IMG/VR virus record: IMGVR_UViG_3300035681_000139
Coordinates: 1 to 22,029 of that record
Length of the DNA: 22,029 nt
Strand: one strand, 5' to 3'
Source of the DNA: a virus
Shown here: positions 101 to 22,029 of the stretch, in pieces
Position numbering within the stretch: position 1 is the first letter of the stretch
How the letters are laid out: every line of letters starts with the position of its first letter
Notes under the pieces: model-generated
Database searches by the model: none
What the model was told of the DNA's origin: nothing
Seen by the model: only the letters and a program-made list of their open reading frames with translations
Program-made: the position numbers and the translations under genes

Positions 101-775
101 TTAGGCCGCAACGGCCTTGATGACTGCGAACTGAAGCACCACCGCCTCGGACAGGTCGGAGCCGCTCAGGATGTTGTGCAGTTGGATGCGGCAGGAGCCG
201 GCCGCCACGGCGGTGACCCCGACGTTGTAGGCATTCGCCGTCGCGCCGGACTTGATGTTGACCACCACCACGTCGGTCGCCGCGATCGCGCTGTTGTTCA
301 GCGTGAAGCTCACCGCCGTCTCGCGGTTCAGCACCGCGTTGTTCATCGTGATGGTGCCGCAGACCTTGTCGAGCGTCACGGCGGTGGCCTTGCTCGTGAG
401 CTGCGTCTCTGCCCCGCCGGCACCGGTCGCGTAGCCGACACCGGCTGACGGAGAGGTAGACCGGATGGACCCGGCTGCGGTCGTGTTGCCGGCCTTGGTC
501 ACCTGGAACCGTGCGGCGCCGCCGACGAGCAGGTTGAGCAGCATCGACCCGGCAGCACTAGCCGTGTCGGTCACATCCATCTTGATGGCCGAGAAGGTCG
601 TGGCGACGTTGTTCCAGACCGCGACGAGGTCGGCCACCGCGCCGCCGGCCAACGCCTTGGCGGTGATTTTCTTGGTCTCGACCGAGCCGGTGTCGACGAT
701 CGGCAGGACATCCGCGGCAGGGTCGAGGTCGCCCTGCGCCAGACTGTCGAACTGGCTAATCTTCTTCGTCGCCAT
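101..775 (-). CDS. Fibre-like virion protein with KKISQ anchor N-terminus (224 aa)
   Basis: The 224-residue protein begins MATKKISQFDSLAQGD and has a VLPIVDTG segment near residue 24. The same pattern (KKISQ, then a VxPIV strand) opens the S74 fibre at 10768-11925. Such N-termini are common on phage tail fibres and appendage proteins and probably attach them to the virion. The rest is rich in Ala, Thr, Val and Asn, low in Cys and without membrane segments, as expected of a beta-structured virion protein. Its ATG overlaps the previous stop by one base (TAATG), so it is likely coupled to the 66-aa gene upstream. The C-terminal half (from about residue 125) could be a small receptor-binding or decoration domain. 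A head decoration protein is an alternative. Confidence 0.65.
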   Translation of the reverse strand: MATKKISQFDSLAQGDLDPAADVLPIVDTGSVETKKITAKALAGGAVADLVAVWNNVATTFSAIKMDVTDTASAAGSMLLNLLVGGAARFQVTKAGNTTAAGSIRSTSPSAGVGYATGAGGAETQLTSKATAVTLDKVCGTITMNNAVLNRETAVSFTLNNSAIAATDVVVVNIKSGATANAYNVGVTAVAAGSCRIQLHNILSGSDLSEAVVLQFAVIKAVAA

Positions 776-1006: not shown

Positions 1007-2374
1007 CTAGCCTAGGACTGGGTAGTCCGCTACTGCCGCCCCGGGCCTTGCCCGCTGGACCGTGCCGCGGAATGGGCGCCGCCCCTTGGCGAGGTAGCGC
1101 AGGGCATCGGCGTGGTGGCTCGACCAGTCATGCAGCGGGCGATCCTTGAACCGCTGGAGCCGCTCGTCGTACTCCCGGCGGTACTGCCGGATGGCATCCA
1201 TCGCGCGCGACATCCTGGCCTTGGCATCCTCCGGCTCCTCGCCGGGGAACGGGTCCGGGTTCGCGTTCCACTCAACCGTGGGCAGCATCTGGCGCACCGC
1301 GCTGATGCCGTCGTCAACGGAGTCGGCCTCGAGGACCCGCGGCTTCAGGCCGTAGCCGGCGGCGGTCTCGAGCCGGGACTTGCCCGACCCCCACTCCTTC
1401 ACCGCCCCGTCGTGCGGCCAGATATGGTCGCCGTAGACATAGTCCATGGCCAGGAGCTTCTTGGCGTACCAGTCCAGACCGACGCCCGACCCCTCGAGGA
1501 CGTTGATGATGCGGATCTTGTGGCCGACGAACTGGTAGAACCAGATGACCGTCGAGTCTCCGATGCCGATGTCCCATGCGGTGCCGACCGGTTGGCCGAC
1601 CACGTGCGGGAAGGGGCCGACCCGCCCGTCCTGCTCGGCGCGGCTCATGGCATCGCCGTAGTATGAGCCGGGGATGTCGGCATCGAAGTCGCAGTAATAC
1701 TCCTGCCGGATGATGGCCTCGGCTTCCTTGTCGCCGCGCTCAACCTTCAGCTCCTTGCGCTCGCGTCGGATGGTCTCAATCGGGATCGCGCCTGTGTCCT
1801 CAACCGTCAGCACCTGCCCGAACCAGTCGCGGTCCTTCCGGGCGTAGTCCACCATTCTGGCGAAATGGTTCCGGCCACGCGGGGTCGAGATGAAGATGGC
1901 CCAGCCGTTGTTCTCCGCGAGGATGGGGCGCAGGAAGGCCCATGCGTTGGGGTCGGCGAGCGCATACTCGGAGAACACCACCCCCATGGGCGGCGAGCCG
2001 ATCAGGCTGTTGTAGTTGTCGCTGCCGACCACCTGCCAGGTGCTGCCGTTCTTGAACCGCAGGAACATGTCCTGCTCGCGGGTGGTCTCCCGCAGCTCAG
2101 GCGGGAAGGCGGCGTCGATGCGGCGCCGGCCAGTGTGCGGGTCCACCGCGTCCCAGATGGCCTTCCGCGACTGGTTCGCCTGCGGGAGCATGTGCCAGAT
2201 GCCACCCACCCGGGTCATGGCGCTGACCGCCGCCCAGTGCAGGGACAGGTCGTCCTTGCCGGATCTGCGGTGCCACGCGAGCGCGAGCCGCTTGCAGCCG
2301 CGCTCGAGCGCCGACCATGCGGGCATCTGGTAGTGGCGCGGCCTCCAGCCGTTAGCCGGCAGGTGGATCGGCAT
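1007..2374 (-). CDS. terL: Terminase large subunit (ATPase and nuclease)
   Basis: This is the DNA-packaging motor that translocates and cuts phage DNA at the portal. The 455-residue length is normal for the family. The ATPase part has a Walker A-like HRRSGKDD at residues 35-42, Walker B VVFSEYA at 132-138 and the coupling segment FISTPRGRN at 161-169. The RNase H-like nuclease part starts near residue 265, with Asp268 in WDIGIGDST, an acidic HIWPHDG segment near 317-323 and a C-terminal HHADALRY. The ATG lies inside the end of the small-subunit gene (23-nt overlap), the usual arrangement. The HRRSGKD form of Walker A, rather than GxGKT, is typical of one group of podovirus-like terminases. 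The identification is secure. Confidence 0.95.
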   Translation of the reverse strand: MPIHLPANGWRPRHYQMPAWSALERGCKRLALAWHRRSGKDDLSLHWAAVSAMTRVGGIWHMLPQANQSRKAIWDAVDPHTGRRRIDAAFPPELRETTREQDMFLRFKNGSTWQVVGSDNYNSLIGSPPMGVVFSEYALADPNAWAFLRPILAENNGWAIFISTPRGRNHFARMVDYARKDRDWFGQVLTVEDTGAIPIETIRRERKELKVERGDKEAEAIIRQEYYCDFDADIPGSYYGDAMSRAEQDGRVGPFPHVVGQPVGTAWDIGIGDSTVIWFYQFVGHKIRIINVLEGSGVGLDWYAKKLLAMDYVYGDHIWPHDGAVKEWGSGKSRLETAAGYGLKPRVLEADSVDDGISAVRQMLPTVEWNANPDPFPGEEPEDAKARMSRAMDAIRQYRREYDERLQRFKDRPLHDWSSHHADALRYLAKGRRPFRGTVQRARPGAAVADYPVLG

Positions 2375-2738
2375 CGGTGAACCGCACGACGTTGACCGTC
2401 AGGCCGACATTGCCCGAATGCTCGACCTCGGCCTTGTCGCCGTACCGCTTGGGCAGGAACTTGGAGGCGAACCACTTGCGGGCATCGAGCTCGACCCGGG
2501 CCTGCTGCGCGTCGATGACGCCGTTCCGCATGTCCTCGATGACCTGCTCGGCTTTCTCGACCTGATCCTGCGCCAGTGCTTCCAATGCGCGCGCGTAACT
2601 GTCACCAGCTGTTACCTTCAGCGCCGCGGCTCGGAAGGTCGCCCGATTGATGCCGACCTGCAGACAGGCGGCGTTCTCCGACATGCCGTCCTCGATCAGC
2701 GCGAGGACCGCCCTGACCTGTTCCGCCCTGTCTGGCAT
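2352..2738 (-). CDS. terS: Terminase small subunit
   Basis: The 128-residue protein binds packaging DNA and guides the large subunit. Residues 18-40 form a helix-turn-helix typical of small terminases (SENAACLQVGINRATFRAA). Next comes a helical oligomerisation segment containing VEKAEQVIEDM, and then a DARKWFASKFLPKRYGDK segment shared by many TerS proteins. The frame stays open far upstream, but the ATG at 2738 is preferred because it overlaps the previous stop as TGATG and because residues before it resemble out-of-frame noise (Arg/Pro/His-rich). It overlaps terL by 23 nt. DNA specificity (cos or pac) cannot be read from the sequence. Confidence 0.9.
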   Translation of the reverse strand: MPDRAEQVRAVLALIEDGMSENAACLQVGINRATFRAAALKVTAGDSYARALEALAQDQVEKAEQVIEDMRNGVIDAQQARVELDARKWFASKFLPKRYGDKAEVEHSGNVGLTVNVVRFTDADPPAG

Positions 2739-2908
2739 CACTTCGCCATCAAGCGTCGGGCGGCGGCGCCCTTGCCGGCCTTCTTGGCGGACTGGCGGGC
2801 GGTGTTCATGGCGATGGCGACCGCCTGCTTCTGGGGTCGGCCGGCGCGGACTTCGGTGGCGATGTTGCGGCTGATGGTCTTCTTCCCGTATCCCTGCATG
2901 AGCGGCAT
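2738..2908 (-). CDS. Small basic conserved phage protein (56 aa)
   Basis: This 56-residue gene starts MPLMQGYGKKTISRN and has the pattern GRPQKQAVAIAMNTAR in its middle. Small proteins of this pattern are common beside phage packaging genes; their function is unknown. It is strongly basic (many Lys and Arg) and probably helical after residue 25. The ATG at 2908 is preferred over longer upstream starts because a GGGGAAG ribosome binding site precedes it and it begins 2 nt after the previous stop. Its own stop overlaps the TerS start by one base. A role as a DNA-binding packaging helper is inferred from charge and location only. Confidence 0.75.
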   Translation of the reverse strand: MPLMQGYGKKTISRNIATEVRAGRPQKQAVAIAMNTARQSAKKAGKGAAARRLMAK

Positions 2909-2910
2909 GG

Positions 2911-3207
2911 TCACTTCCCCTTGTTGCGGTTGCTGATTGCCCGGGCCTTGGCCTTGGCGTCTTCCTTGGAGCTGGCTCCCCATGCCCGCAGCGCGAGCGC
3001 GAGGCGGGTGGGCTTGCCGTCCTTCCCAACCATGGGTCCGGGCATGTTGCCCATCCGGGCGAGGAAGGAGGCGCGGCGGGGGTTGTCGCCGGACTTGACC
3101 GGGGCCTTGAGGTTCATGCCCTCGGCCTTGGCGGATCGGCGACCGGCCTCGTTGAGACCGCCCTTCGGGTTCTGCCCTGCCTTGCGCTGCCATGCCGGGG
3201 TCTTCAT
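2911..3207 (-). CDS. DUF6321-like small phage protein (98 aa)
   Basis: The protein begins MKTPAWQRKAGQNPKGGLNE, then has NLKAPVKSGDNPRRASFLAR at residues 32-51, and a C-terminal tail dense in Lys and Arg. The TPAWxRxxGxxxxGGLNxxGR start and NPRRxSFxARM core match what is known as DUF6321, a phage family of unknown function; I make this match from memory of the pattern. The start overlaps the previous stop as ATGA. It sits in a run of tiny genes before the terminase, suggesting a link to packaging or head assembly. It is basic and may bind nucleic acid, but no catalytic motif is visible. Confidence 0.75.
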   Translation of the reverse strand: MKTPAWQRKAGQNPKGGLNEAGRRSAKAEGMNLKAPVKSGDNPRRASFLARMGNMPGPMVGKDGKPTRLALALRAWGASSKEDAKAKARAISNRNKGK

Positions 3208-3452
3208 ACCAGGTTCACGTCTCCACGGTCGGACGGTGGTCTGCCCCCGGGTCCGCCCGGTCTACCCGGCGACGGGGTCGGCTGCGGCCCTCCGAGGCCC
3301 GCTGCGGCGACTCCGGCGGTAGCCCTAGGGGCGAGCCGCGGCACCCTGCCGGCGGCCCCACCGAGGCTTGTGCGGCCCCTGCGGCGGCGAGGGTCGAACG
3401 GGTCTTCCCCCTCGAGGTCGCCGTTGTCGCCGAGCAGCTGCGCCTTCGCCAT
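3204..3452 (-). CDS. Small Arg/Gly/Pro-rich protein of unknown function (82 aa)
   Basis: The ATG at 3452 overlaps the stop of the 51-aa gene by one base (TGATG), and its stop overlaps the next start as ATGA. These two tight junctions are the main evidence that the gene is real. An in-frame GTG one codon upstream is less likely. The N-terminus is acidic (MAKAQLLGDNGDLEGED) and is followed by four arginines and a long Gly/Pro/Ala/Arg-rich tail with no predicted fold. I do not recognise the family. The low-complexity tail could be disordered. Confidence 0.6.
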   Translation of the reverse strand: MAKAQLLGDNGDLEGEDPFDPRRRRGRTSLGGAAGRVPRLAPRATAGVAAAGLGGPQPTPSPGRPGGPGGRPPSDRGDVNLV

Positions 3453-3607
3453 CACTTGCGCCCGAGCGCGGTCTTCATCGACTCCCGGAATGCCTTCGCG
3501 GTCGGCGCGCCGGGGCTGCCGGGTTTCCGCATCTTCTCGCCGGACCCTTCCGCGATCCGCTTGCGCTTGGCCCAGATGTTCGCGTACAGGCCGGGTCTAT
3601 TCGCCAT
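3452..3607 (-). CDS. Conserved 51-aa basic phage protein
   Basis: This 51-residue gene is easily missed because of its size. It starts MANRPGLYANIWAKRKRIAE, continues with GSGEKMRKPGSPGAPTAKAF and ends in TALGRK. The NRPGLYANIxAKRxRI...GSGEKMRKPG pattern recurs in small proteins near phage terminase and portal genes; function unknown. It is very basic, with about 13 Lys/Arg in 51 residues. It starts 11 nt inside the end of the zinc-ribbon gene and its stop overlaps the next ATG by one base. Context and charge suggest a packaging, head or DNA-associated accessory protein, which is inference. Confidence 0.75.
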   Translation of the reverse strand: MANRPGLYANIWAKRKRIAEGSGEKMRKPGSPGAPTAKAFRESMKTALGRK

Positions 3608-3806
3608 CGGGGGTCTCCTTGCTGTCAACTGCCGGTCGCCGGACCAGCGCCCCGCGCGCGAATGTCAACACGGTCGCGCTGGCCTTGGGCGGTGCGGGTC
3701 GGTTGCACTCGTGGCATCGAATCCAGTCGCCCATGCCGTCCGCCACCCAGCCAGAGCTGTTGCAGTTGAGGCAGCGGGCGAACCGGATGCCGTCGTCGGC
3801 GCTCAT
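3597..3806 (-). CDS. Small zinc-ribbon-like protein (69 aa)
   Basis: The 69-residue protein has two CxxC pairs, CLNC at residues 12-15 and CHEC at 31-34, separated by about 15 residues (SSGWVADGMGDWIR). This spacing is that of a small zinc ribbon that could bind one zinc ion. The C-terminal half (from residue 40) is Ala/Arg-rich with no recognised motif. The ATG at 3806 is chosen because upstream in-frame sequence is low-complexity Arg/Gly/Ala and overlaps the nuclease gene in another frame; its ribosome binding site is weak. It could be a DNA- or RNA-binding helper. No named family is assigned. Confidence 0.7.
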   Translation of the reverse strand: MSADDGIRFARCLNCNSSGWVADGMGDWIRCHECNRPAPPKASATVLTFARGALVRRPAVDSKETPDGE

Positions 3807-4808: not shown

Positions 4809-5053
4809 TTGCGCGGCCCCGCGCACTCGCCCTTGAACATCCGCTCGCAGCGCCCCTCGCTGCTCATGCAGCCGGGATAGCCGCAGGCTGCTTGGTCGCC
4901 CCGCAGCCGCGTCACCTCGGCCTCGAGCTCCGTGATGCGGGCGGCGTACCACGCGCATCGCTTGAGGGCGCTCTCACACTCGCGTCGCCACTCGTCCGGC
5001 GTGTGCTGCTGCGCTAGCCATGCCTTGTCCCACTCGTCCAACTCAATCGCCAT
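4805..5053 (-). CDS. Small coiled-coil protein with Cys-rich C-terminus (82 aa)
   Basis: The N-terminal part (MAIELDEWDKAWLAQQHTP) and the following segment to about residue 52 form a charged helix with heptad-like ITELEAEVTRL, suggesting a short coiled coil. The last 30 residues contain four cysteines (CGYPGC, GRC, GEC), which might bind a metal. The ATG at 5053 is supported by a strong GGAGG site 6-7 nt upstream, inside the end of the methyltransferase gene (11-nt overlap). The family is not recognised. Its stop overlaps the GTG start of the next gene. Confidence 0.7.
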   Translation of the reverse strand: MAIELDEWDKAWLAQQHTPDEWRRECESALKRCAWYAARITELEAEVTRLRGDQAACGYPGCMSSEGRCERMFKGECAGPRK

Positions 5054-6335
5054 GGATGTCCTCCACTTGTTGGATGCGTTCGCCGATCCACCTCATGCAA
5101 TTCACCGCCATCGAATTCCCGAGCGCCTTGTAGCGCGGGCCGTCCGGTGCTTCGGGCTTCTTGCGCCACGGGATGTTCGTGTAGCCGTCAGGGAAGCCTT
5201 GCAGCCGCTCGCACTCGACGGGCGTGAGGCGGCGGACTTGCATAGCGGGAGTCATCACAGACCCCTCAAAGCCGCCTCCTTCCATGCGTGCCTTCAATGT
5301 GCCGAACCCTTCCACGCAAGCGTTTTGCTCCTCGTCTAACCCAATCGCCACCGGCTGCATCACCGCCGGCACAAGGTGGGCATTCCCGCCCGGCGTGTCG
5401 CCGCGGCTGCACAAGGTTTGCGCGGTATCGCCCGTTACCGTTTGGTTGTAAGTGTCAAACGCCACCGGCTGCGCGACCGCCATCCCGTTGTCCTTCGCGC
5501 CGAGCGGGTGCGTGATGTCGCCGCTTACGTCGGGGTCTTGGCGGTTGTGGAAGGCGACTGGCTGCGCGACGAACTGATCTTGCGCCGCCGCCAACGTAAA
5601 GGCGCGTTCCTCGCTGCCGAGGTAGCCCTTGCCAGCCTGCTTGCCGATGTTGGTGCTGCCGCGCGAGCCATCCTCGCGCTCGACGCCGCCACGGACTTTG
5701 AAAATGTGCGGCGCTATTCCTGCGCCACCGCTTGCAACGCCGCCTCCAACGCTGGCGGCAGCGCCTTGCCGCGCTTCCCGGCTCGGCGGAGAATCCCGGC
5801 GCACGCTTTCGCGCTCAAAAAGAACCTGGGCGGCACGCTGCCAGTCTCCAAGATGCGCGACAACGAACACACGACGGCGGCGCTGGGCCACTCCGAACCA
5901 TTGAGCGTCCAAGACTCGGTAGGCCCACCCATACCCCAACTCCCCCAACGCCCCGAGGAAGGTGCCAAAGTCCCGTCCTCCGCCAGATGACAGGACGCCG
6001 GGGACGTTTTCCCAGACAACCCATCTAGGCCGGTAACGCCGAGCGATCGCAAGGTAAGTGAGCATGAGGTTTCCTCGAGGGTCTTCGAGGCCCTTGCGGA
6101 GCCCCGCGACCGAGAAGCTTTGGCAGGGGGTTCCTCCGACAAGAAGGTCAACTGGTTCATCAGGCCACTCCTGGTATTTGGTGACGTCGCCCCAATTCGG
6201 GACGTTGGGGAATCGGTGCTTCAGCACCGCGCTCGGGAACTTCTCGATCTCTGCGAACGCGACCGGGGTCCAACCTAGGTCGTGCCACGCAACGCTCGCG
6301 GCTTCGATGCCGGAGAACAGCGACAGGTATCTCAT
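5043..6335 (-). CDS. dcm: DNA (cytosine-5) methyltransferase
   Basis: This enzyme transfers a methyl group from S-adenosylmethionine to C5 of cytosine in a specific DNA sequence. Visible motifs are LFSGIEA (6-12, cofactor loop), GGTPCQSFSVAG with catalytic Cys71, WENVPG (108-113), QRRRRVF (151-157), and near the C-terminus LTPVECERLQGFP and ALGNSMAVNC (motifs IX and X). The 430-residue length is normal. The variable region between about 180 and 375 should recognise DNA and contains repeated QPVAF-type segments. No cognate restriction gene is adjacent, so it is probably an orphan enzyme protecting phage DNA from host restriction or marking it. It overlaps the HTH gene stop by 4 nt. Confidence 0.93.
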   Translation of the reverse strand: MRYLSLFSGIEAASVAWHDLGWTPVAFAEIEKFPSAVLKHRFPNVPNWGDVTKYQEWPDEPVDLLVGGTPCQSFSVAGLRKGLEDPRGNLMLTYLAIARRYRPRWVVWENVPGVLSSGGGRDFGTFLGALGELGYGWAYRVLDAQWFGVAQRRRRVFVVAHLGDWQRAAQVLFERESVRRDSPPSREARQGAAASVGGGVASGGAGIAPHIFKVRGGVEREDGSRGSTNIGKQAGKGYLGSEERAFTLAAAQDQFVAQPVAFHNRQDPDVSGDITHPLGAKDNGMAVAQPVAFDTYNQTVTGDTAQTLCSRGDTPGGNAHLVPAVMQPVAIGLDEEQNACVEGFGTLKARMEGGGFEGSVMTPAMQVRRLTPVECERLQGFPDGYTNIPWRKKPEAPDGPRYKALGNSMAVNCMRWIGERIQQVEDIHGD

Positions 6336-8531: not shown

Positions 8532-8671
8532 GCTCGCCATGGGATGACGATGATTCCTGGTGGCACCATCAGGACCAGCTGATGCAGGAGCTCGAGGAGC
8601 AAGAGCGCATCGAAGCCTGTAACCAAGCACTTTCGATCTACCGACAGGAGAGCAACGATGAACCAGTCTGA
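8528..8671 (+). CDS. Tiny acidic protein (47 aa)
   Basis: The ATG at 8528 overlaps the preceding TGA as ATGA. The product starts MSSPWDDDDSWWHHQDQLMQ and continues with a Glu-rich helix (ELEEQERIEA). It is acidic at the N-terminus and probably disordered there. It overlaps the ERF start by 14 nt, and the AGGAG site of ERF lies within it. Small acidic phage proteins can mimic DNA or bind host enzymes, but nothing here shows that. The coupled layout is the main support for it being a gene. Confidence 0.55.
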   Translation: MSSPWDDDDSWWHHQDQLMQELEEQERIEACNQALSIYRQESNDEPV

Positions 8672-9194
8672 TGACATCAACGAACTCGCAGCCGCCCTGA
8701 GCAAGGCGCAGGCGAGCATCACCGGGGCGCTGAAGGATTCGGCCAACCCGTTCTTCAAGAGCAAGTACGCCGACCTCGCCAGCTGCTGGGATGCCTGCCG
8801 CAAGCAACTCACCGACAACGAGCTCGCGGTAATCCAGACCACCGACATCATGCAGGACGGTCGCACCGTCCTCATCACCACCCTCGCCCACGCCAGCGGG
8901 CAATGGGTCCGCTCGGTGACCCCGGTGTTGGTCAAGGATGACGGTCCGCAGGCGCAGGGCAGCGGCCTGACCTACGCCCGCCGCTATGCCCTCGCCGCCA
9001 TCGTCGGCTTGGCGCAGATCGATGACGATGCCGAGGCGGCGACCGCCCGCAACAGCGTCGACCCCGCGCTCACCCGCAAGGTCGCCCAGTGCGCCACGCT
9101 CGAGGAGCTCACCGCCCTGTTCAAGAGCCTGCCGGAGGCCACCCGCGCCTCGCACAGCAACATCTTTTCCAACCGCAGGAGGGAACTGCAATGA
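8658..9194 (+). CDS. erf: ERF-family single-strand annealing protein
   Basis: ERF proteins pair complementary single strands in phage recombination and genome circularisation. The 178-residue protein has the family core: NPFFKSKYADLASCWDACR (30-48), a strand-rich middle with LAHASGQWVRS, and GSGLTYARRYALAAIVGLA (101-119) followed by an acidic DDDAE. The C-terminal tail from about 130 is variable and helical and may interact with partners. An AGGAG site lies 7 nt before the ATG. The next gene, an exonuclease, starts in its stop codon (ATGA), which fits an annealing protein and exonuclease pair made together. Confidence 0.9.
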   Translation: MNQSDDINELAAALSKAQASITGALKDSANPFFKSKYADLASCWDACRKQLTDNELAVIQTTDIMQDGRTVLITTLAHASGQWVRSVTPVLVKDDGPQAQGSGLTYARRYALAAIVGLAQIDDDAEAATARNSVDPALTRKVAQCATLEELTALFKSLPEATRASHSNIFSNRRRELQ

Positions 9195-9838
9195 CCGAAG
9201 AAGCCACCCCGTACACCGCCGAGCGCGTCGAACTCCAGCGCACCGACGACTGGCGCATCGCCCGCTTGGGGCTCGTGACCGCGAGCCGCATCGCCGACGT
9301 CATGGCCCGCACCAAGTCGGGTTACGGCGCCTCGCGCGCGAACTACATGGCGGAGCTCTTGACCGAGCGCCTGACCGGCCAGCCGTCCCCGTCGTTCACC
9401 AACGCCGCCATGCAATGGGGGATCGACAAGGAGCCGGAGGCCCGTGCCGCCTACGCCGCGCGCACCGGCATCATCATCGAGGAGACCGGCTTCATCCGCC
9501 ATCCGACCCTCGCTGCCGGCGCATCGCCGGACGGACTGGTCGGCGATGACGGCTGCGTCGAGATCAAGTGTCCCTCGACCGCCACCATGCTCGAGTACCT
9601 CGAGGATCGGACCGTGCCGACCAAGTACCGCCTGCAGATGCAATGGCAGATGGCCTGCACCGGGCGGGCATGGAACGACTTCGCCGCCTACGATCCGCGT
9701 CTGCCGGAACACCTGCGGCTGCTCATCATCCGTGAGCCGCGCAGCGTCGACCTCATCGCGGAAATCACCGGGGAAGTCGAGAAATTCCTCGCCGAGCTTG
9801 AGGCCAAGTTCCAGCGGTTGCAGGAGCTGCGCCTGTGA
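9191..9838 (+). CDS. YqaJ-type phage exonuclease (lambda Exo-like)
   Basis: This enzyme should degrade one strand of double-stranded DNA to expose single strands for the ERF protein. The 215-residue length fits the YqaJ viral recombinase family. Visible features are WRIARLGLVTASRIADV (21-37), the helix with WGIDKEPEARAAY (76-88, Glu83), ASPDGL with catalytic Asp114, VEIKCPS with Glu124 and Lys126, and YRLQMQWQMACTG (146-158) with Gln149/Gln151. The C-terminal helix is charged. AGGAGGG lies 7 nt before the ATG. The stop overlaps the GTG of the SSB-like gene. Confidence 0.93.
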   Translation: MTEEATPYTAERVELQRTDDWRIARLGLVTASRIADVMARTKSGYGASRANYMAELLTERLTGQPSPSFTNAAMQWGIDKEPEARAAYAARTGIIIEETGFIRHPTLAAGASPDGLVGDDGCVEIKCPSTATMLEYLEDRTVPTKYRLQMQWQMACTGRAWNDFAAYDPRLPEHLRLLIIREPRSVDLIAEITGEVEKFLAELEAKFQRLQELRL

Positions 9839-10565: not shown

Positions 10566-10771
10566 CGCAGACCGAACAGATCCGCGCGCACCTGTCCTCC
10601 GGCAAGGACCTCACCCCGCTCGAGGCGCTCAACCTCTACGGCTGCCTGCGGCTCGCGGCACGGGTCGCAGACCTGCGCGAGGAGGGGCTCGACATCCAGA
10701 CCCTGACCGAGGAGCGCGGCGGCAAGCGGTTCGCCCGCTACCGGCTCGTCGGCCAGTTGCCGTTGGTTTAG
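10562..10771 (+). CDS. Small helix-turn-helix protein, last rightward gene (69 aa)
   Basis: The product begins MTQTEQIRAHLSSGKDLTPL and has a winged-helix pattern: LTPLEALNLYGCLRLAARVA then LREEGLDIQTL, then a hairpin KRFARYRLVG. This is like the small HTH domain proteins found near phage recombination or lysogeny genes. It overlaps the previous stop as ATGA, with a GGAGA site in the end of that gene. Its TAG stop shares three bases (10769-10771) with the convergent fibre stop. It may be a DNA-binding regulator of the operon. Confidence 0.7.
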   Translation: MTQTEQIRAHLSSGKDLTPLEALNLYGCLRLAARVADLREEGLDIQTLTEERGGKRFARYRLVGQLPLV

Positions 10772-11925
10772 CCCTCGCCGAGCCGCGCCTCGAGCTGCTC
10801 GACCTTCGCGGAGAGCTCTTTCACCGCGTTGATCAGGTGCCAGACCAAAGGGTCGGTGCTGACCGACAGGGTGCCGGTGCTGTTCTCGGTCACGCACTCC
10901 GGCAGCACCTGACGCAGCTCCTGCGCGATCACGCCCAGCTGCACACCGTCCTTGTCGATGGCGGCATGGGCCGGGAGGTCCGTGATCTCCTCCGGCTTGC
11001 GGTACTCGAAACTGCGGACCCGGATCTGCTTGATGATGCCGAGGCCGTCGTGGTTGTCCACGATGTTCTTCTTGATGCGCTCGTCCGAGGTCGTCTCCCA
11101 GGTGGTGACGTTCTTCCCGTTGAAGGCACCGCTGGTGCCGCCGATGAAGGCGGTGTTGCTGCCCTTGCCGGCGATGCTCGGCCCCACGACGATCTCGTTC
11201 GTGACGTTGTTCGCGCTCGCATCAGCACCGAAGCCGACATACACGTTCCCGGTTCCGGTCGTGATTGTGTCGCCGGCCTCATACCCGACCGCCGTGTTGG
11301 TGCCGGCGGTCGCAGCAGCTAGCGCACGGCCTCCGACTGCGGTGCTTTGCGCCCCGGTAGTGACGAACAGCGCGCGATAGCCGACAGCGGTGTTCTGCGA
11401 GGTCGTGCTTGCCGTTTGAAGCGCATCAGCACCGACAGCGGTGTTCTGGGTTCCGGTGGTGACGGCATAGCCAGCGGCGTAACCAATCAAAATGTTGTCC
11501 GATCCGCTGGTCAGGCCGTAACCGCCACGCCACCCCATGCTGACATTTCTCGGGCCGGTCGTGATGAAGGGCGATGCGTCGGTTCCGACCACGACGTTAT
11601 CGGCGACGCTGCCTGCGCCGAGTCCGATCCTGACGCCATTGAAGGTCGCATCAGCAGAGAACGTCTGCGCTCCGGTGAATGTCTGCGCCGCGTCGGTTCG
11701 CGCCGCCGTGAAGTTGGCATTGGGCGTGGTCATCACGCGGGTGGTGCCAGCGCCCGGACCTGCGACCTGCAGGATGCCGGTCGTCGCATTGGAGCGCAGG
11801 TTCTTGACCGTGAGGTCATCGACTGGGACCTTGACGGTGCTGCTGGACTGGACGATCGGAACGACCTCTGTGCCGGCTAGCGGCGTGGTCGCGGCGGTCA
11901 GTTGCGAAATCTTCTTGTCGGCCAT
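10768..11925 (-). CDS. Tail fibre/appendage protein with S74 chaperone domain
   Basis: The protein begins MADKKISQLTAATTPLAGTE, an N-terminal anchor like that of the 224-aa fibre-like gene. The middle (about 140-240) has repeated NTAVG/STAVG units at irregular 16-30 residue spacing, like stacked beta-roll head repeats. The C-terminus from 278 is an intramolecular chaperone of the S74 type: TTSDERIKKNI with Ser280 and Lys285/286, then LGVIAQELRQVLPE. In this family the domain trimerises the fibre and cuts itself off at the serine. Residues 360-382 make a coiled coil. An AGAGGA site precedes the ATG. It follows the tailspike gene and ends against the rightward operon. Confidence 0.88.
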   Translation of the reverse strand: MADKKISQLTAATTPLAGTEVVPIVQSSSTVKVPVDDLTVKNLRSNATTGILQVAGPGAGTTRVMTTPNANFTAARTDAAQTFTGAQTFSADATFNGVRIGLGAGSVADNVVVGTDASPFITTGPRNVSMGWRGGYGLTSGSDNILIGYAAGYAVTTGTQNTAVGADALQTASTTSQNTAVGYRALFVTTGAQSTAVGGRALAAATAGTNTAVGYEAGDTITTGTGNVYVGFGADASANNVTNEIVVGPSIAGKGSNTAFIGGTSGAFNGKNVTTWETTSDERIKKNIVDNHDGLGIIKQIRVRSFEYRKPEEITDLPAHAAIDKDGVQLGVIAQELRQVLPECVTENSTGTLSVSTDPLVWHLINAVKELSAKVEQLEARLGEG

Positions 11926-13825: not shown

Positions 13826-16800
13826 TCATTGCTCCCTTGGCGGCCCGTACAGAACCTCGTACATGAACTGCTGCGGCGACTCCGGGTTCCGCTCGTCATT
13901 CAGGACATCGAGAGTGTATTCCCCGCTGATCCTGATTTGCCTCGTCGGCAACCCGAAGATGTATCCGCTGCTCTCAAACAGATCCCATGCGACGTCATTG
14001 AACTCCCGGTCCCCGGCTAGCACATCCGACGTCCGCATGAACGTGCGCCCAACCTTCTCGATCGACCCGGCGACCGGCGACAGTCGCCAACTCGGCTGAT
14101 ACGCCATCTCGCCCTCGCCGGTCAAGTTTATCATGGTGGCCTCGACCACCCCAGAACCTTCCTTGAGGATCGGCACCGAGGCCAACGGATAGAGCAGCAT
14201 CTTGCGGATCGCCCACCAGGTCTCGTCCTCGTCCTCGTCCGGGCCGCGCCCCGCCAGGATTTCGCCCAGCGCCGCCGGCAGGATGACTAGCGCCAGCATC
14301 CGGGCGACCGCCCGGGGCATGTCGCGCACCCGGCGGGTGGTCGCGCCGACGTCACGCATCCGGGCATACAGCACCGAGAATGGGGTGTAATACATGGTCA
14401 GCAGCTTCATCAGCTCGTTGTCGCGCTGCACCGCTGCAAGGTCTTTAGCGCCCGCTGCGCCCTGCGAGAGCCGGACCGACCTGTCCCCTGCCCGGATGGC
14501 GTCCTCCTCCCCTAGGCCCTCTGCGAGCGCCTGACGGTATGCCCCGATCCATGTCGGGATGGTGATCTGCCGGTCGGCCATCGCGGTCAGGTAGAACGCG
14601 GACCGGCGGATGGCCGCCAACGGTCCGACCTCGCCACGCAAGGTGCGGAGACTGTCGCGGACATCGCGGTCGATGTTGTCGGATCGGAACTTCATCTCGC
14701 CCGACCGATCGTAGACGAACTGCTCAAGGGTCTCGCGGTGGGTGGACCACGGCCCGAACCGGTTGTAGTCGATGAGCGCCTGCGTGAAGAAGCGCGGCTT
14801 GACGGTGTCGAGCGCGGGGCCGATGCCGGCGAACTGCGCCATCATGGTCGTGACCTTCCAGCCCATGGTGACGATAGCCATGTTGGTGCGGAACTGCATG
14901 ATCGCGCGCGAGAACACGTTCCCGGAGTGCAGGGTGTCGGCCCGGTCGGACACCAGCACCTGCATCCACTTGGTGAACTCCCGGTAGCGGGCCTCGCCTA
15001 GCCGGTCAATCATCACCTCCTTGATCTCCTCGTCCTTGAGGATCTTGTTGAGGCTGAAGATGGCCTCGCGGTGGGAGATGTCCTTGATGACCTTGGTCAG
15101 GTGACTGGTCAGCACCTGCTCGTAGTCGAGCCGCACCGCCGCCTTCAGGTTCTCGACGCGCTGCTTGGTGTAGCCGCGGTCGGTCCGCGCGCGACCGTAG
15201 GCGTTCGACATGAACTGCGAAACCGACTCGGTCGCCTCGGCCTGCTTGTCGCCGACCGCCGAGAGCTTCGGGTCATAGGCCAGCGGGAAGTACCCGCCGC
15301 GGTAGTCACCGAACCGGGTCTGCACCACACGCGGCTCAACCTTCGGCGGCGCCACCCCGGACGTGCGCTCCTCGAGCGCCTTGATCTCCGGCCACAGGGA
15401 ATTGACCGCATCCCAGATGCCTTGGATGTAGTCCCAGTCCTCCTTCGCCAACTTGCCGAGCGCGGCGTTGATGGAGGAATCGCTCCACCCGTACCCGTCC
15501 CGCAGCCGCTGGTAGTTGCTGTCATTGCCGACATTCATGGCGATGCTGATGAGGGTGTAGCGGGTGACCGGGGATTCGATCCCGGGCAGCAGCACATCGA
15601 CCTTGTCGGTCAGGGAATCGCCCCAGCCCTTCGGCATCGACTCGGTCAGCTCCTGGATCTTCTGGGTCACCATCGCGTGAAGCTCGTATTCCTTCACCTG
15701 CGCGTCATTCGCCAGGTCGAACACGAACCGCGCCCACGGCCCATTAATCTTGCCGCCGTCCAGCCACTCAACCATCTGCTCAACCTTGAGGATGGCGGCA
15801 TCGAACCGCCGCCACGCCTTGGCCCCGCGCGCGCGCAGCGGCTCGCCGACCGTGTTGGGGATGCGGAGCTCGCCGGTCGTGGCGAGGCGATCGGACTCGG
15901 TCGCCGACTTGATGAGCTCGTCCTTGGTCTCTTGGAACTCCACCGCCGCAGCCTTCCGCAGCAGCTTGTCCTTCAGCCGTGCGAGGTGTTCGATGTTCCG
16001 CACGGTGTCGTAGACCGCCCGCAGCTCATCGACCGATGCGTTCTTGTAGTTGACCAACCGCGCCTCGTCGAGCAGCTGGTCTGGGACATTGACGATGAGG
16101 CCGAGCGCGGCCTGCTGCTCGGCGAAATCGGCCAGCGATTGGCGGCGGGCAAGCACCCGCAGCGGCACACGCCGGAACTCGTACTTCTCGAGGATGGCGT
16201 CGATCTGGTCGAGGTAGCCGCCGCCGGCCTTCGCTAGCCGCTCGCGGGTCGCCTTCTTGTCGAACTTGTTGGCATAGTCGTAGATGCGGTCGAGCTGCTG
16301 CTGCGCCTTGCGGGCCTCGAGGTACATGTAGTGGTTCAGCAGCTCGCGCTGCTTCTCGGTCGCAGCCGCGTTGTAGTCCTTCCTGCGGATCGCATCGAAC
16401 GCCGCCTTCGATGCGCGGCGCTCGGCGAGCAGGTACTTTCCGGGCGAGATGTCCCGCGCCATCATCTGCCCGATGCGACCGGCCGCAGCCCGGGCGAACG
16501 CCTGCGGGTCGGCCATGGCGGCATCGACCATGTCCATGCCGGCGCGGCGCTGCTCGGCCTCCTCACGGCGCAGGGCAGCGACCACCGGGCGCACCTGCCG
16601 CTGGAGCCGGCGGATGGCGACGAGCTCCGCCTTCAGGACATTGGCCCGCTCGGAATTGTGGATGGCGGCCATGGCCTCGTCGGCGATCGTCCCGTCCAGC
16701 CGCATGTCGCCGAACTCCGCAGCCATGCGGTTCGCGGTCTCGGCCTCGATGAGCTCCTTGCGCGGGCGCAGGTTGATAAGCGCCGTCATCAGCGCCTCGC

Positions 16801-19800
16801 CGCTCTCGAACCCGAGCATCTCGGCTGCGGTGTCGATGTCGGTGCCGCCGTCCTTGGTGTAGACCTTCCGCAGGAACCGGGGCATCCGCTTCAGGTACTC
16901 GGAGCCGAACCGGTTCTCCAGCGCCTGGCGGGAGAGCTTGACGGGGACGCCGTCCGGCAGCTTGCCCTCGGTCAGGATCGCGGCTGCGCGGTAGGCCGGC
17001 GAGGAGTCCACCTCCTCGGTGACCTTCTCAAGCATCTTGGCGCGCTCGGCCTTCCACCACTTCTCGCGCTCGCGCTGGTACTCGCGGATGAGCCGCCCCT
17101 GCAACTTCTCCTTCGCCGCCTCGCCGGCAGCCTCTGCGGTCTTCTTGTAGGCCGCGAACTCGGCCTCCGTCATGCCGGCATCCTGCGCGCTGGCGAACAC
17201 CTCCCGCACGTCGAGCTCGGCATTGGCCGACTCGATTTCCTTGTCGGTCGCATAGATGCGGTCGAACACGCCACGGACATCGTCGTTCATCCGCACGTTG
17301 AGGTTGGTCAGCACCCGGTAGACCAGCGTCATCCACGCCCGCACCCGCTGGAAGATGGTCCGCAGCTCGGCGCTCGGGGCCTTGCCCTCCATCAGGTACG
17401 CCTCATTGGCGCGGGCGAACTCCTCATGCTGCTTGACGCCGATTTCGGCGCGGGACTTCACCCCGAACCACTTCATCAGCGTCTCGGCGTCGGCCTTGAT
17501 CTGCGGGCTGGCGTCCGGGCGCTCGGCGAGATCGAGCAGCACCTCGAGGTAGAAGTGGCCGGTCTCGTGGATGAAGGTCGAAAGGTCGGCCTTCTCGAGC
17601 AACCCGATGCGGACCCTGCGGTCGGCGCCGAACTGGATATAGCCGCGCTTGTCGGTCTCGCCTTGGAACAGCGGCATCCCGCCGACCACGGCCTCGCGCA
17701 TCTCCGGGGTGATGTCAAACCCGAACTGCGTCATCTTCTTCTGGCCGGCGGCGCGCGCGACCATCGTGTCGGCGAAGTTTCTTGCAACTTCACGCGCCAT
17801 CTCCGGCATGTTGACGGCGTCATAGTCCATCAACCAGTTGTCGATTTCGCCTTCGGTTACCAGATCCTCGAGGTCGGCATACACGATGACATCATTGGCA
17901 TCGAGCGTACCGCGCATGTATTTCATCGCCTGCTTGACGATTTCTGCGCGGTCGAGTTTGATGCCCTCGGTCTTCGGCAGCCGGACGGTGCTGAGAGTGC
18001 CGCCGAGTTTCGGCACCATCTTCTTGACCGCAGACGGCACGATGTCATCGTAGAACGCCCGCATTCCCTTGCCGCCGATCTTGATCTCAACGCCGGTCAG
18101 GACGCGGCGACCGGTCTCATCAGGCTCTGCCTCAAGCAGCTTGTCGGCCAACTCCTTGCCGATGATGCTCGGCAGGTTCTTCGCGTCGGTGAACTGATCG
18201 ACAATCGGGTTGCCCCTCATGTCGAGCGCGATGAAGTTTCTGTACTGCTCCTCCCACGAAATGGCGCTGACATCCTTGTCCAACTGATAGCGCGCGACGG
18301 ACTGGTCGCCGTTGATGAACGCGACACGGTCATAGCCTTCCGACGCAGCCATCGTGATGATGCGCTTGAGCGCGAGCGCAACCCATGCGTCGGTCTTTTG
18401 GACGAACGGCGCTGCATTGACGCTGCCAATCAGCGAATCGATGCGCGCCTGCAGGGATGCCAACTCAGCGGCTTCCTCTGCGGAGAGAGGGTTGCCATCG
18501 CTCTGCGAGCGCACATACAGGTTTGAGAGACGGGACTGCTCTGCGTTGTTCAGCGGCGTGGCGCCGCGACCTCTAAAGCCTTCCTCGCGTCCTTCCTGCG
18601 CCCAATCCGACTGAACCTCCTCAACAAACAGCACCTTCTTGCCGTCCGCATCGACGCGATCATTGACGCGAAAGTGCGCGAGGACATTGGAAAAATGTCC
18701 CCAATGCTCGCTCGTAAACGGGCGCTTGGCCTCCGGTTGGCGGCTGAACTCAATCGTCCCGCCGAACCGATCCTCCGCGATGGATTTGAACCGGCTGACA
18801 TCCTCGTCGGCAAGGTTGTCGAACTCCACATCGAACCGCCCGAATGACGGGTCGGAAGGTTCTGCGATGCGGACAGTCTCGGACCTGAATCCCGCCGCTA
18901 TAGCAACCGACACGAATCTGGCGGCGGCTTCTTCATTGGGGAAATTGATGGTGCCGAACCCGCCGGCAGGGGTCTCCATCGGCAGGCGCAGCAGCACCTC
19001 GCGGTAGTTGGTGCCGCCAGGAAGCACTAACCGCCCGCGGTTGAACCGAGCAAGGTTGGCAACCCGGCTGGTGTACGTGTTCACAATCTGCTGGACATTC
19101 TCCGGCAAATCCTCTGGAGAGACTGCATCGCCCTCCGGGTCGATATACACGATGTCGGGGTCATCATCGTCGGCCCGGTCGAGGTTGACCGAGTAGCCGG
19201 TGCCTTCCAGAGCCGCGTTGAAGTCGGCCTCAACGTAGTTGACCTGACCAAGCACGGTCTCCTCTACCCGCACACCGTTGGCGGCGAGGTAGTCGATGAC
19301 GGCTTGGCGGGTGACCTTGCCCTGCTGCAGGTCCAGCCATTCGCGGATGCCAGACCATTCGACCTCGTCGGCCTTGATGCGGCCCTTGTTGACGAGGGAA
19401 TTGAGCGCGCCCTGCCAGCCGGATGCCGGCAGCGGCTTGTCCTCGAGGGAGGCTACTCCGCGGGCGAGGGCGGAGTAGAAGCCGGGGCCTGCCGTGACGC
19501 TCTGGAAGAACCTTCGCGCCGCGCCTTCAGCACCGCCGCCAGTCTCCGATACGCCTCCGCTTCTTGCGAAGTCGCTTGCTCCGTCGCTGAATCCATAGCT
19601 CTTGGCTCCGGTGCCGAGGTGGTTGAATAGCTGCTGCTCGAAGAACCAGATGACGGACTGGACCTGGTAGGGCTTGATTCCGACTTCCTTCGCGGCTGCA
19701 TTGAAGATCTCCTTGGCGACCCGGCGCTCTGGCTCGGTCGGGGCGTCAACTATTGTACCATCCTCGCCGAGCATACGCCCGAAGTACCGGTTGAAGGTAC

Positions 19801-22029
19801 GGGTCGCCCACATGTCAATCGTGAGCTCAGGGATGCCATTGATGTTGGCGACGAACGGACCGACCTTCGGCCCGAACATGAACAGGCCGATTTTCTCGTC
19901 GGTCATCTTGCCATCGACGCCGGGACCCATGTTGCCCCACTTCCTGCGGGCGTCGTTCAGCTCCTTGACCGTATGCGCCGAGAACAGCCATTCGACGGCC
20001 TTCTCCTCGCCGAGGTCTTTGACCATGGCGTTGAGCATGTCGAGCTGCTTTTTCTTGTTGGGCGACTGGGTGCCGCCGGCCCACAACCCCTTGGTCTTCG
20101 GGTTCTCGCCGGGAATGACCCCGGTCTGCTCGTAGTGCTGGAATGCCTCTGCGGTGATTTTCCAGTTGAGGTTGGCGGTCGTTTGCGGCGACAGGATCGC
20201 GGCCATCACGGAGAACAGCTGCCGCTTCGTCTCGCTGGCGAGGCCGGGGATGAGCCGCTGCGTAATCTCAAACGCCTTGGCGATGTCCTGCTCGTACCAG
20301 TCGAGGCCGGACTTGTCCTGATCCATCTGGTAGCGCAACTCCGCAACGAGCTGCTTCACCGCGCGCTTCTGCTCTTTCGGGTCGTTGTAGTCGCGCTTCC
20401 CGGTGATGCGATCGAAGAACGCAGCGACATCGTTGACCTTCATGCGCTGCTTGCCGGTCAGCGGCGGCCCCATGCGGAGCGCGATGGCGGTGTCTTGCGC
20501 GGCCTTCTTCGGGAGCTTGACCTTGGAGTCAGGCTCCTTCCCGGGCTTGCCGCTCTGGAAGAAGATGTCCCCGAGAACGGTGGGGTACATGTTGTTCTGC
20601 TCAACGCTCGAGACGCCGGTCTCGGTGTTGATGAAATCCTTCGCGGGCGCATCAAGCTGCCGCAGCATCTTGATGACGTTGTTCGACCCCTGCTGCGTCA
20701 TCTCACCGCGATGGACGCCAATCACGCCGTTGGCATTAGCCAGCGAGATGGCGCGGGACAGGACATCGACGCCGCCCGGGCGGCGCAGCTTCTCCAACTG
20801 CGACATGTCGTAGGGCAGGAACCCGATCGGCTTGTTGGTGTTGTCGAGCAGGATGAAGCCGGACTCCCTGCCGGCGATGCTCGCAGCGGCCTCTCTTGCA
20901 GCATCAGGGCCGATGATTGAGGGGCCGAGCGCGCCATGCTCCACGAATTGGCGACCGATGACGGTGACCTTCTTCAACTTGCCGACCGCGCCGGTTCTGC
21001 CGGTCTCCTCGCCCTTGTTGGTCTGCGCGTGTTGCCACGGGCGGTTGTCGATGGTCGCCCCACCGCCGATTGCCAAGATGCCATTCGGCTTGATGCCGGT
21101 GCCGACAAAGATGTTGTGGATTATCTTCTCGACCTGCTTGTCCGCATCAGACAGGAAGTAATTCCCGCTCGGATGGTTGTGCGCCACCCAGATGTTGGCG
21201 GCACCTTGGATGCGGAATGCCTCCGCAGCGATCTGCCCCCAATAGACCGCAGCCGACGAGATGTCGCCGATGGCGGTGCCGACGATAGCCAACGGCTTGC
21301 CGTTCTTGTCGGTGACCAACACATCGAACCGCTCGCGGGTTCCGCGCGCGAGGGTGGCGAATGCAGCAGCCGCTTCAGCCGGGGTTCGCACCCGATCCGC
21401 AGCGATTTCGCGCACCGAATCCTTCACCATCTCGGTGCGCTGTGCGTAGCGCCCGGGCGCGGTGTCGATGGTCTTGACCCCAGCGGCTCCGGCTCTGCCG
21501 GCGTTGGGAGGCAGCGCGAGCAACTGGTCGGCGGTCCATGCCTCCAACTGCTCGATGGACGGCACCTCATAGGGGGCGTCGCCCTGCTCGTGGAACGCGA
21601 AGATGCGGAACCCGGCATCCCACTTCCGCCGCGCATCATCCAAGCTCTCAATCTGCACCCCGAAGTTTCGCAGCCGGGTCGAGAGGGGCTGGTTGAACTC
21701 CACCTCCGGCACCCCGCCCATGCCCTCGCTCGCCTTGGCAATCAGCGCCTTGACGGTCGCGTTGTCGGTGGTCGTGACGTCGATGCCCTGCTGCCCGAGG
21801 AACTGCTCCAGCCCCTCGAGCGCGTCGGCAAGCTCGGCCAGGTCCGCCCGCTCCTTCCCGGGCATGAACACGCCCTCACCGCGGAACTCCCGGTCCATGG
21901 CGTCGAGGAAGGTCTGCTCGGTCTCGCCGACATCGAACCCGGCCTCGAGCGCGAGCTCGCGGGCCTCGTCGAACGTCATGCCGGTCTCGGACACTAGCGC
22001 CTTCTCGCCGACCCGGCGGTTGTCGCGGT
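13826..22029 (-). CDS. Giant phage polyvalent protein, 5'-truncated by the window (at least 2,733 residues)
   Basis: The frame stays open to the window edge, upstream of a GTG at 21994, so the true start is outside. Residues below are counted from that GTG. A RadC-like JAB domain lies at 190-315 with HNHPSG (272-277) and SDAD (282-285). Domains recurrent in phage polyvalent proteins follow: 500-800 (with ILSPQTTANLNWK), 825-915 (EWSGIREWLDLQQGKV), and 990-1445 (FVEEVQSDWAQ, ending FDITPEMREAV and PLFQ). A zinc-peptidase motif HETGH is at 1476-1480. Residues 1600-2300 are mostly helical. The C-terminus has SAFYLTAMADRQITIP and AAGAKDLAAVQR plus two hydrophobic stretches (2562-2582, 2596-2611). 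The gene lies 3 nt before the tailspike. It is probably packaged and injected; domain identities are from motifs only. Confidence 0.85.
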   Translation of the reverse strand, partial: RDNRRVGEKALVSETGMTFDEARELALEAGFDVGETEQTFLDAMDREFRGEGVFMPGKERADLAELADALEGLEQFLGQQGIDVTTTDNATVKALIAKASEGMGGVPEVEFNQPLSTRLRNFGVQIESLDDARRKWDAGFRIFAFHEQGDAPYEVPSIEQLEAWTADQLLALPPNAGRAGAAGVKTIDTAPGRYAQRTEMVKDSVREIAADRVRTPAEAAAAFATLARGTRERFDVLVTDKNGKPLAIVGTAIGDISSAAVYWGQIAAEAFRIQGAANIWVAHNHPSGNYFLSDADKQVEKIIHNIFVGTGIKPNGILAIGGGATIDNRPWQHAQTNKGEETGRTGAVGKLKKVTVIGRQFVEHGALGPSIIGPDAAREAAASIAGRESGFILLDNTNKPIGFLPYDMSQLEKLRRPGGVDVLSRAISLANANGVIGVHRGEMTQQGSNNVIKMLRQLDAPAKDFINTETGVSSVEQNNMYPTVLGDIFFQSGKPGKEPDSKVKLPKKAAQDTAIALRMGPPLTGKQRMKVNDVAAFFDRITGKRDYNDPKEQKRAVKQLVAELRYQMDQDKSGLDWYEQDIAKAFEITQRLIPGLASETKRQLFSVMAAILSPQTTANLNWKITAEAFQHYEQTGVIPGENPKTKGLWAGGTQSPNKKKQLDMLNAMVKDLGEEKAVEWLFSAHTVKELNDARRKWGNMGPGVDGKMTDEKIGLFMFGPKVGPFVANINGIPELTIDMWATRTFNRYFGRMLGEDGTIVDAPTEPERRVAKEIFNAAAKEVGIKPYQVQSVIWFFEQQLFNHLGTGAKSYGFSDGASDFARSGGVSETGGGAEGAARRFFQSVTAGPGFYSALARGVASLEDKPLPASGWQGALNSLVNKGRIKADEVEWSGIREWLDLQQGKVTRQAVIDYLAANGVRVEETVLGQVNYVEADFNAALEGTGYSVNLDRADDDDPDIVYIDPEGDAVSPEDLPENVQQIVNTYTSRVANLARFNRGRLVLPGGTNYREVLLRLPMETPAGGFGTINFPNEEAAARFVSVAIAAGFRSETVRIAEPSDPSFGRFDVEFDNLADEDVSRFKSIAEDRFGGTIEFSRQPEAKRPFTSEHWGHFSNVLAHFRVNDRVDADGKKVLFVEEVQSDWAQEGREEGFRGRGATPLNNAEQSRLSNLYVRSQSDGNPLSAEEAAELASLQARIDSLIGSVNAAPFVQKTDAWVALALKRIITMAASEGYDRVAFINGDQSVARYQLDKDVSAISWEEQYRNFIALDMRGNPIVDQFTDAKNLPSIIGKELADKLLEAEPDETGRRVLTGVEIKIGGKGMRAFYDDIVPSAVKKMVPKLGGTLSTVRLPKTEGIKLDRAEIVKQAMKYMRGTLDANDVIVYADLEDLVTEGEIDNWLMDYDAVNMPEMAREVARNFADTMVARAAGQKKMTQFGFDITPEMREAVVGGMPLFQGETDKRGYIQFGADRRVRIGLLEKADLSTFIHETGHFYLEVLLDLAERPDASPQIKADAETLMKWFGVKSRAEIGVKQHEEFARANEAYLMEGKAPSAELRTIFQRVRAWMTLVYRVLTNLNVRMNDDVRGVFDRIYATDKEIESANAELDVREVFASAQDAGMTEAEFAAYKKTAEAAGEAAKEKLQGRLIREYQREREKWWKAERAKMLEKVTEEVDSSPAYRAAAILTEGKLPDGVPVKLSRQALENRFGSEYLKRMPRFLRKVYTKDGGTDIDTAAEMLGFESGEALMTALINLRPRKELIEAETANRMAAEFGDMRLDGTIADEAMAAIHNSERANVLKAELVAIRRLQRQVRPVVAALRREEAEQRRAGMDMVDAAMADPQAFARAAAGRIGQMMARDISPGKYLLAERRASKAAFDAIRRKDYNAAATEKQRELLNHYMYLEARKAQQQLDRIYDYANKFDKKATRERLAKAGGGYLDQIDAILEKYEFRRVPLRVLARRQSLADFAEQQAALGLIVNVPDQLLDEARLVNYKNASVDELRAVYDTVRNIEHLARLKDKLLRKAAAVEFQETKDELIKSATESDRLATTGELRIPNTVGEPLRARGAKAWRRFDAAILKVEQMVEWLDGGKINGPWARFVFDLANDAQVKEYELHAMVTQKIQELTESMPKGWGDSLTDKVDVLLPGIESPVTRYTLISIAMNVGNDSNYQRLRDGYGWSDSSINAALGKLAKEDWDYIQGIWDAVNSLWPEIKALEERTSGVAPPKVEPRVVQTRFGDYRGGYFPLAYDPKLSAVGDKQAEATESVSQFMSNAYGRARTDRGYTKQRVENLKAAVRLDYEQVLTSHLTKVIKDISHREAIFSLNKILKDEEIKEVMIDRLGEARYREFTKWMQVLVSDRADTLHSGNVFSRAIMQFRTNMAIVTMGWKVTTMMAQFAGIGPALDTVKPRFFTQALIDYNRFGPWSTHRETLEQFVYDRSGEMKFRSDNIDRDVRDSLRTLRGEVGPLAAIRRSAFYLTAMADRQITIPTWIGAYRQALAEGLGEEDAIRAGDRSVRLSQGAAGAKDLAAVQRDNELMKLLTMYYTPFSVLYARMRDVGATTRRVRDMPRAVARMLALVILPAALGEILAGRGPDEDEDETWWAIRKMLLYPLASVPILKEGSGVVEATMINLTGEGEMAYQPSWRLSPVAGSIEKVGRTFMRTSDVLAGDREFNDVAWDLFESSGYIFGLPTRQIRISGEYTLDVLNDERNPESPQQFMYEVLYGPPREQ

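Follow-up and report, generated by a model that had tools for sequence, protein, structure and literature searches.

Three small basic phage gene families, linked, shuffled and naturally fused, make up a unit in the head-building region

Three small genes rich in lysine and arginine, here called g2, g4 and g5, recur together in tailed phages: they lie close to one another in shuffled orders, are joined in places into a single protein, and sit in the head-building region; in the phage analysed here they are translationally coupled and under coding constraint. One way to understand this association is to regard the three as late, basic modules of a single head-morphogenesis unit, which would enter the prohead or virion and there bind DNA or the inner side of portal and head; the probability of this reading is put at about one half. 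The window, meaning the whole stretch of DNA analysed, is a complete virus record of 22,029 bases (IMGVR_UViG_3300035681_000139).

The operon and its coding character

Five tiny genes on the minus strand, g1 to g5 (3806-2738), lead into terS and then terL (Table 1). They are tightly joined: g1 overlaps g2 by 11 nt, g2 overlaps g3 by 1 nt and g3 overlaps g4 by 4 nt; a 2-nt gap separates g4 from g5, g5 overlaps terS by 1 nt, and terS overlaps terL by 23 nt. The original prediction, made from the letters of the window, had described five tiny coupled genes ahead of terS; the coordinates and translations agree exactly with the sizes and junctions it gave. It had also picked out the 51-, 98- and 56-aa genes as dense in Lys and Arg, and the composition confirms this: these residues make up 25% of g2, 23% of g4 and 23% of g5 (net charge +10, +17 and +12), against 12-15% in g1, g3, terS, terL and the upstream PDDEXK-type gene.

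All five look like real genes, to judge from substitution patterns and from the clear ribosome-binding sequences before g2 (AAGGAG) and g5 (AAGGGG). Median dN/dS against relatives is 0.25 for g1 (19 usable pairs), 0.16 for g2 (62), 0.24 for g3 (20), 0.115 for g4 (66) and 0.25 for g5 (52), figures not meant for close reading, since terS came out at 0.74 by the same method. Pairs were left out if coverage fell below 60%, if they had fewer than 8 differences or if their synonymous difference reached 0.7; the highest values for a single pair were 0.96 (g2) and 1.12 (g4). A further statement, that a 51-aa gene is below many gene-calling cut-offs, is wrong for current callers, whose cut-offs do not exclude 51 aa; yet a clear g2 gene in MW202483 (L002:5001-5153) is missing from the deposited annotation.

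In a close relative (L094), terL is followed downstream by a portal gene of the PF12236 head-to-tail connector family; the operon of the window therefore probably opens the late head region of a phage resembling podoviruses. Elsewhere in the window, the products of the gene after terL and of the tail-fibre gene have similar starts (MATKKISQ.. and MADKKISQ..), suggesting that they may have a common N-terminal attachment module.

Table 1. Genes of the operon and other genes of the window
Gene	Position	Strand	Length (aa)	Description
g1	3597..3806	-	69	CxxC-x15-CxxC, zinc-ribbon-like; net charge 0; local operon partner
g2	3452..3607	-	51	basic module; phrog_16028
g3	3204..3452	-	82	Gly/Pro/Arg-rich; local operon partner
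g4	2911..3207	-	98	basic; DUF6321 domain (domain DNA 2980-3174)
g5	2738..2908	-	56	basic, predicted helical hairpin; phrog_2423
terS	2352..2738	-	128	PF20901 Sf6_terminase, E 2.1e-13; phrog_1482
terL	1007..2374	-	455	phrog_2, E 3.3e-20
Gene after terL	101..775	-	224	start similar to that of the tail-fibre gene
Methyltransferase-like gene	5043..6335	-	430	DNA methyltransferase family matches; upstream of the operon
Recombination genes	8658..9838	+		ERF-type and YqaJ-type; strand opposite to the operon
Tail-fibre gene	10768..11925	-	385	start similar to that of the gene after terL
Large gene	13826..21994	-	2,722	RadC-like JAB domain and DUF7178 match; upstream of two tail genes

Families of the five proteins

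The g4 protein matches the Pfam domain DUF6321 (PF19846) with 76.1 bits (E 3.4e-21), above the curated cut-off of 28.5 bits, and none of 14 control genomes matches that domain. It also matches phrog_4689, one of the PHROGs that correspond to DUF6321 (the others being phrog_727, 3477, 10346 and 11180). The other two basic proteins match PHROG profiles over nearly their full length: g2 matches phrog_16028 (E 4.1e-24; residues 4-47 on profile positions 3-46 of 50) and g5 matches phrog_2423 (E 1.3e-16; residues 1-44 on profile positions 1-44 of 52). Both PHROGs are listed without function, and no source was found that pairs them with each other or either of them with DUF6321. The consensus of g2 reads GLYANI..K..RI..GSGEKMRKPG..GAPTA..F..S.KTAK, with 16 invariant columns (alignment A5, n=20); that of g5 reads MPL.KGYSKK.IS.NI..E..AGRPQKQAVAIA..AR. 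Among 50,697 phage records, 493 match g4 (E<=0.01), 104 match g2 and 431 match g5, the last two counted at E<=0.1 and some of the g5 matches being weak.

Several other assignments were considered. DUF6496 (PF20106) has no match to the g5 of the window at E<=1, and the matches to it from 7 of 38 g5 relatives (best E 0.0079) are too weak for membership. The DUF6321 genes of phages Greip (gp45, L249) and MinM2 are labelled RecA-like recombination protein, apparently a copied label; for the g4 of the window that name is unsupported in Pfam and PHROGs, and it is read as a transferred annotation. The Pfam matches of g1, a zinc ribbon among them, are all sub-threshold, and g3 has nothing at E<=1 in Pfam, PHROG or NCBIfam.

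The g4 of the window differs from many of its relatives. Among the 268 DUF6321 domains scored for a cysteine pair (of 276; being kin rather than independent cases, they are given no Fisher p-value), 162 have both cysteines, 104 neither and 2 only one; the window's g4 is without the pair. In T4-like cyanophages, moreover, the same domain forms the C-terminal tail of large proteins, whereas here it stands alone, encoded alongside g2 and g5 in an operon of translationally coupled genes.

Linkage across phages

Relatives of g4, g5 and g2 were gathered separately from IMG/VR, where at least 594 stretches match g4 and at least 597 match g2; the best 80 loci for each were taken and all their ORFs profile-searched. 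Among the best 80 g2 loci, g4 is found in 64, within 1 kb in 62 and on the same strand in all 64, and g5 in 35, every time within 1 kb. The best 80 g5 loci hold g4 in 65 cases and g2 in 49; the best 80 g4 loci hold g2 in 57 (43 within 1 kb) and g5 in 12. All told, 84 of 235 distinct viral loci have all three modules, 105 have two and 46 have one, with the caveat that many loci are closely related and such counts overstate independent events. The partnerless cases (14/80 g2-seeded, 19/80 g4-seeded and 13/80 g5-seeded loci) include many short contigs.

Proximity is kept while order varies. The order g2-g4-g5 occurs in 53 loci, g4-g2-g5 in 30, g5-g2-g4 in 11 and g4-g5-g2 in 1, tallies that include eight annotated phage loci as well as the window and its own copy (L001). 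In the second of these arrangements terL stands before the modules and the portal gene after them in 27 of the 30 loci. The full order of the window, g1 and g3 included, is seen in 37 loci, again counting the window and L001.

The remaining two genes behave otherwise. The whole IMG/VR viral collection yields 44 contigs with g1 relatives and 25 with g3 relatives, and the fetched stretches nearly always hold the trio as well: g2, g4 and g5 accompany g1 in 38, 40 and 39 of 44 loci, and g3 in 24, 25 and 24 of 25. Being both rare and nearly always beside the trio, g1 and g3 are taken as real operon partners within one lineage, and their membership of a wide unit is rejected. The search for co-occurrence that had been proposed for all five genes thus gives a divided answer: g2, g4 and g5 occur together beyond chance, and g1 and g3 are confined to a single lineage.

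Cellular genome contigs contributed 62 loci: g4 alone in 52, g2 with g4 in 8 and g5 with g4 in 2. Most are titled as metagenome-assembled genomes from scattered taxa, so they look like phage sequence in bins. In the T7-like cyanophage Syn5, g2, g4 and g5 are all missing from the late region between the nucleotide-metabolism and tail-fibre genes; not every phage of this kind therefore needs the trio.

Natural fusions

PHROG matches hinted at fusions, and five fused ORFs were then found in the first set of loci. A query with a fused protein gave 80 loci, with ORFs joining g2-g4 (66), g5-g2-g4 (5) and g5-g4 (1); these numbers are not rates, as the query was itself a fusion, two of the five triple fusions share 98% identity, and one of the five (L255) is the same contig as L200. 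Because g2, g4 and g5 recur together and are also found joined in natural single proteins, they are regarded as parts of one unit.

Two of the g2-g4 fusions (L199 and L206) have an extra N-terminal module, MPSKSxxQHRLM (phrog_16759), which has a further match at the start of PHROGs that bear the name virion structural protein; 28 of the 40 rows in alignment A1 begin similarly. This module may belong to the set as its fourth member. In longer proteins the DUF6321 domain is terminal: of 13 ORFs of more than 250 aa, 12 have it at the very C-terminal end. A separate kind of join is seen in S-RIP2 (L248:4992-5504), where one ORF combines a g2 module with a beta-barrel domain resembling a cyanophage outer-membrane protein (PF24653).

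Placement among head genes

The nearest long neighbours of g2 in its 80 loci (same strand, 150-900 aa, duplicates removed, n=109; one protein may match several families) include terL (phrog_2) 27 times and portal families 19 and 4 times, the rest being other or unknown; terminase and portal are the most frequent named neighbours. Among 94 proteins encoded more than 2 kb off in the same loci, portal phrog_156 appears 2 times and scaffold families 8 and 3 times, and terL is not among the 25 families listed of 134. In three sets of loci that contain terL, the nearest module lies within 1 kb of it in 37/44, 39/48 and 54/62, where about 14, 14 and 20 loci would be expected for one random point outside terL, a comparison that favours the observed figures in that the nearest of up to three modules is set against a single point.

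Individual phages show how far the placement ranges. In MW202483 and OR003940, g2-g5 lie between terL and portal, and in MEP401 two genes separate g4 from terL. HTVC022P has g2-g4 between scaffold and capsid, S-RIP2 has g4-g2 between portal and capsid genes, and P-SCSP1u has g4-g2 between capsid and tail tube. The g5 gene follows the coat gene in MW202867 and the head proteins in PB1, where ORF19 is a weak relative of it (E 0.01), and lies between head morphogenesis and capsid genes in phiEap-2. The sole annotated fused locus (L258) has its gene downstream of a head-protease-like gene and upstream of a virion-protein-like one. The head link is not clear in Pelagibacter phage Greip, whose g4 has small genes around it and a DNA-stabilisation gene a few kb away. 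That basic genes of this kind lie near terminases in other phages had been part of the original prediction, and the terL and portal neighbours uphold it; T7-like phages, whose modules have scaffold, capsid and tail-tube genes around them, show that the association is one with the head module and not with terminase alone.

The same placements bear on the main rival explanation, which is unlikely though the strongest of its kind: the modules would be assembly-stage cofactors, acting with terminase, portal or scaffold and leaving before the particle is complete. The direct coupling of the window modules to terS is what such cofactors would show, as are the prevalence of terL and portal among the named neighbours, the scaffold-capsid position in HTVC022P and the portal-capsid position in S-RIP2. 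The positions of the modules beyond the terminase region speak against it.

Virion reports and predicted structure

T4-like cyanophages encode large proteins ending in DUF6321 between terS and terL. One of them, S-CREM2 gp137 (490 aa, DUF6321 at 409-490), appears in the virion proteome table of that phage, identified by 4 unique peptides at a coverage of 4.1% (PMC10665884). Another, S-SCSM1 ORF29 (517 aa, DUF6321 at 438-517), bears the record label 'virion protein'; as mass spectrometry is reported to have identified 45 proteins in virions of this phage (PMC9602691), the label presumably means detection by that method. These reports of DUF6321-tailed proteins in virions count against cofactors that leave the particle. 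In S-SZBM1, on the other hand, the 165-aa DUF6321 protein SSZBM1_192 is absent from the 30-protein virion table, in which the nearby proteins 190 and 195 are present (PMC9146016), and this lack of detection suits the cofactor explanation. In the same table SSZBM1_195 (L253, 87 aa), whose gene adjoins terS, ranks third by abundance index (PMC9146016).

No stand-alone g2, g4 or g5 protein was traced in the parts of the virion reports available, and the accessible text of the cryo-EM account of P-SCSP1u names no component resembling them. The corresponding portions of the papers on PB1-like and phiKZ-like phages, P-SSP7, YongM and S-CREM1, and of the 2010 paper on T4-like cyanophages, hold no usable statement on these genes. 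A literature search found no paper naming DUF6321 or DUF6496, and broader searches, in the text they returned, found nothing on such a gene set.

AlphaFold2 predicts g5 as a helical hairpin (H9-21/H26-54; mean pLDDT 80.7, pTM 0.60). A triple fusion is predicted as short helices (pLDDT 68.6, pTM 0.39), and at that pTM only the short helices are used. A BFVD search with the fused model gave 8 matches at E<=0.001, mainly DUF6321 proteins and including the S-SCSM1 lead; the match to the prohead protease A0A8S5NQY6 covers 43 columns at 58% identity, with an E of 2.6. Searches of the PDB with single sequences and profiles gave nothing credible, and Foldseek with the g5 model no match at E<=0.001; no credible DNA-binding relative was found by sequence (Pfam, PDB, profiles) or by the g5 fold search. 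The one profile match, of g5 to a TAL-type protein (E 0.51), and the matches of g5 to thiolases (E>=0.73) are at chance level and were rejected. Common ancestry of g2, g4 and g5 was likewise set aside: profile comparisons detect no relation among them, and the G-x-P turn common to the modules is therefore taken as chance or convergence.

What the modules may do

A mechanism in keeping with a head-morphogenesis unit can be outlined. Coupled translation in the packaging operon would yield the basic modules alongside the motor; being small and helical, they could be taken into the prohead or virion; and their charge would then bind packaged DNA or those surfaces of portal and head that face it. 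The same modules would be deployed as separate genes, as one fused protein or, in the case of DUF6321, at the C-terminal end of a large virion protein. Late timing, the presence of the stand-alone modules inside the particle, DNA binding and any benefit from it all belong to this proposal, which for DNA binding draws on charge and predicted helices.

Known systems offer partial likenesses. HU, IHF and TF1, histone-like proteins that bend DNA, are small and basic like the trio; none of g1-g5 matches an HU/IHF-type family in Pfam at E<=1, and the predicted g5 is a bare helical hairpin. The internal proteins of T4 (IPI-III) and the Dar proteins of P1 travel in the phage head and enter the host with the DNA, and carriage in the head with DNA is the likeness proposed here; the trio has no match to them in family and PDB searches, and an ejected defence role is not indicated.

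Such a role is nonetheless the substance of a second rival, quite improbable, by which the modules would be basic proteins packed in the head that reach the host along with the phage DNA and act there upon its DNA or its defences. It would fit small, basic, head-linked, modular and shuffled genes, and the reports of large DUF6321 carriers in virions. Counter-defence genes change fast, however, unlike the strongly constrained g4 and g2, and unlike modules spread over phages of unrelated hosts. The weakest rival, that basic hitch-hikers with no common function stay together through phage kinship alone, can appeal to the heavy redundancy of the loci and to single-module loci (46/235 viral; 52/62 on genome contigs, with g4 alone), but it is already disfavoured, and highly improbable, given that order is shuffled while proximity is kept, and that the genes have repeatedly fused in frame, in phages whose terminases, portals and capsids differ.

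Membership of one head-morphogenesis unit is thus the preferred reading of g2, g4 and g5. The suggestion that all five tiny genes might form an unrecognised packaging or head-DNA system survives in reduced form: the basic trio is a unit in the head and packaging region of unrelated phages, and the unit has three genes, not five. A bolder reading, possible and offered tentatively, is that T7-, T4-, P22-like and other tailed phages have in common a head-DNA system, chromatin-like or portal-anchoring and so far unrecognised, of which the modules would be the interchangeable parts.

Implications

Three orphan families of unlisted function, known by name only, are here joined into one unit by natural fusions and set in the head-building region. 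Should the modules prove to be head components, they would be widespread ones, and proteomics based on trypsin might overlook them, since proteins so rich in Lys and Arg would yield very short peptides. The fused forms would let their function be tested on a single protein.
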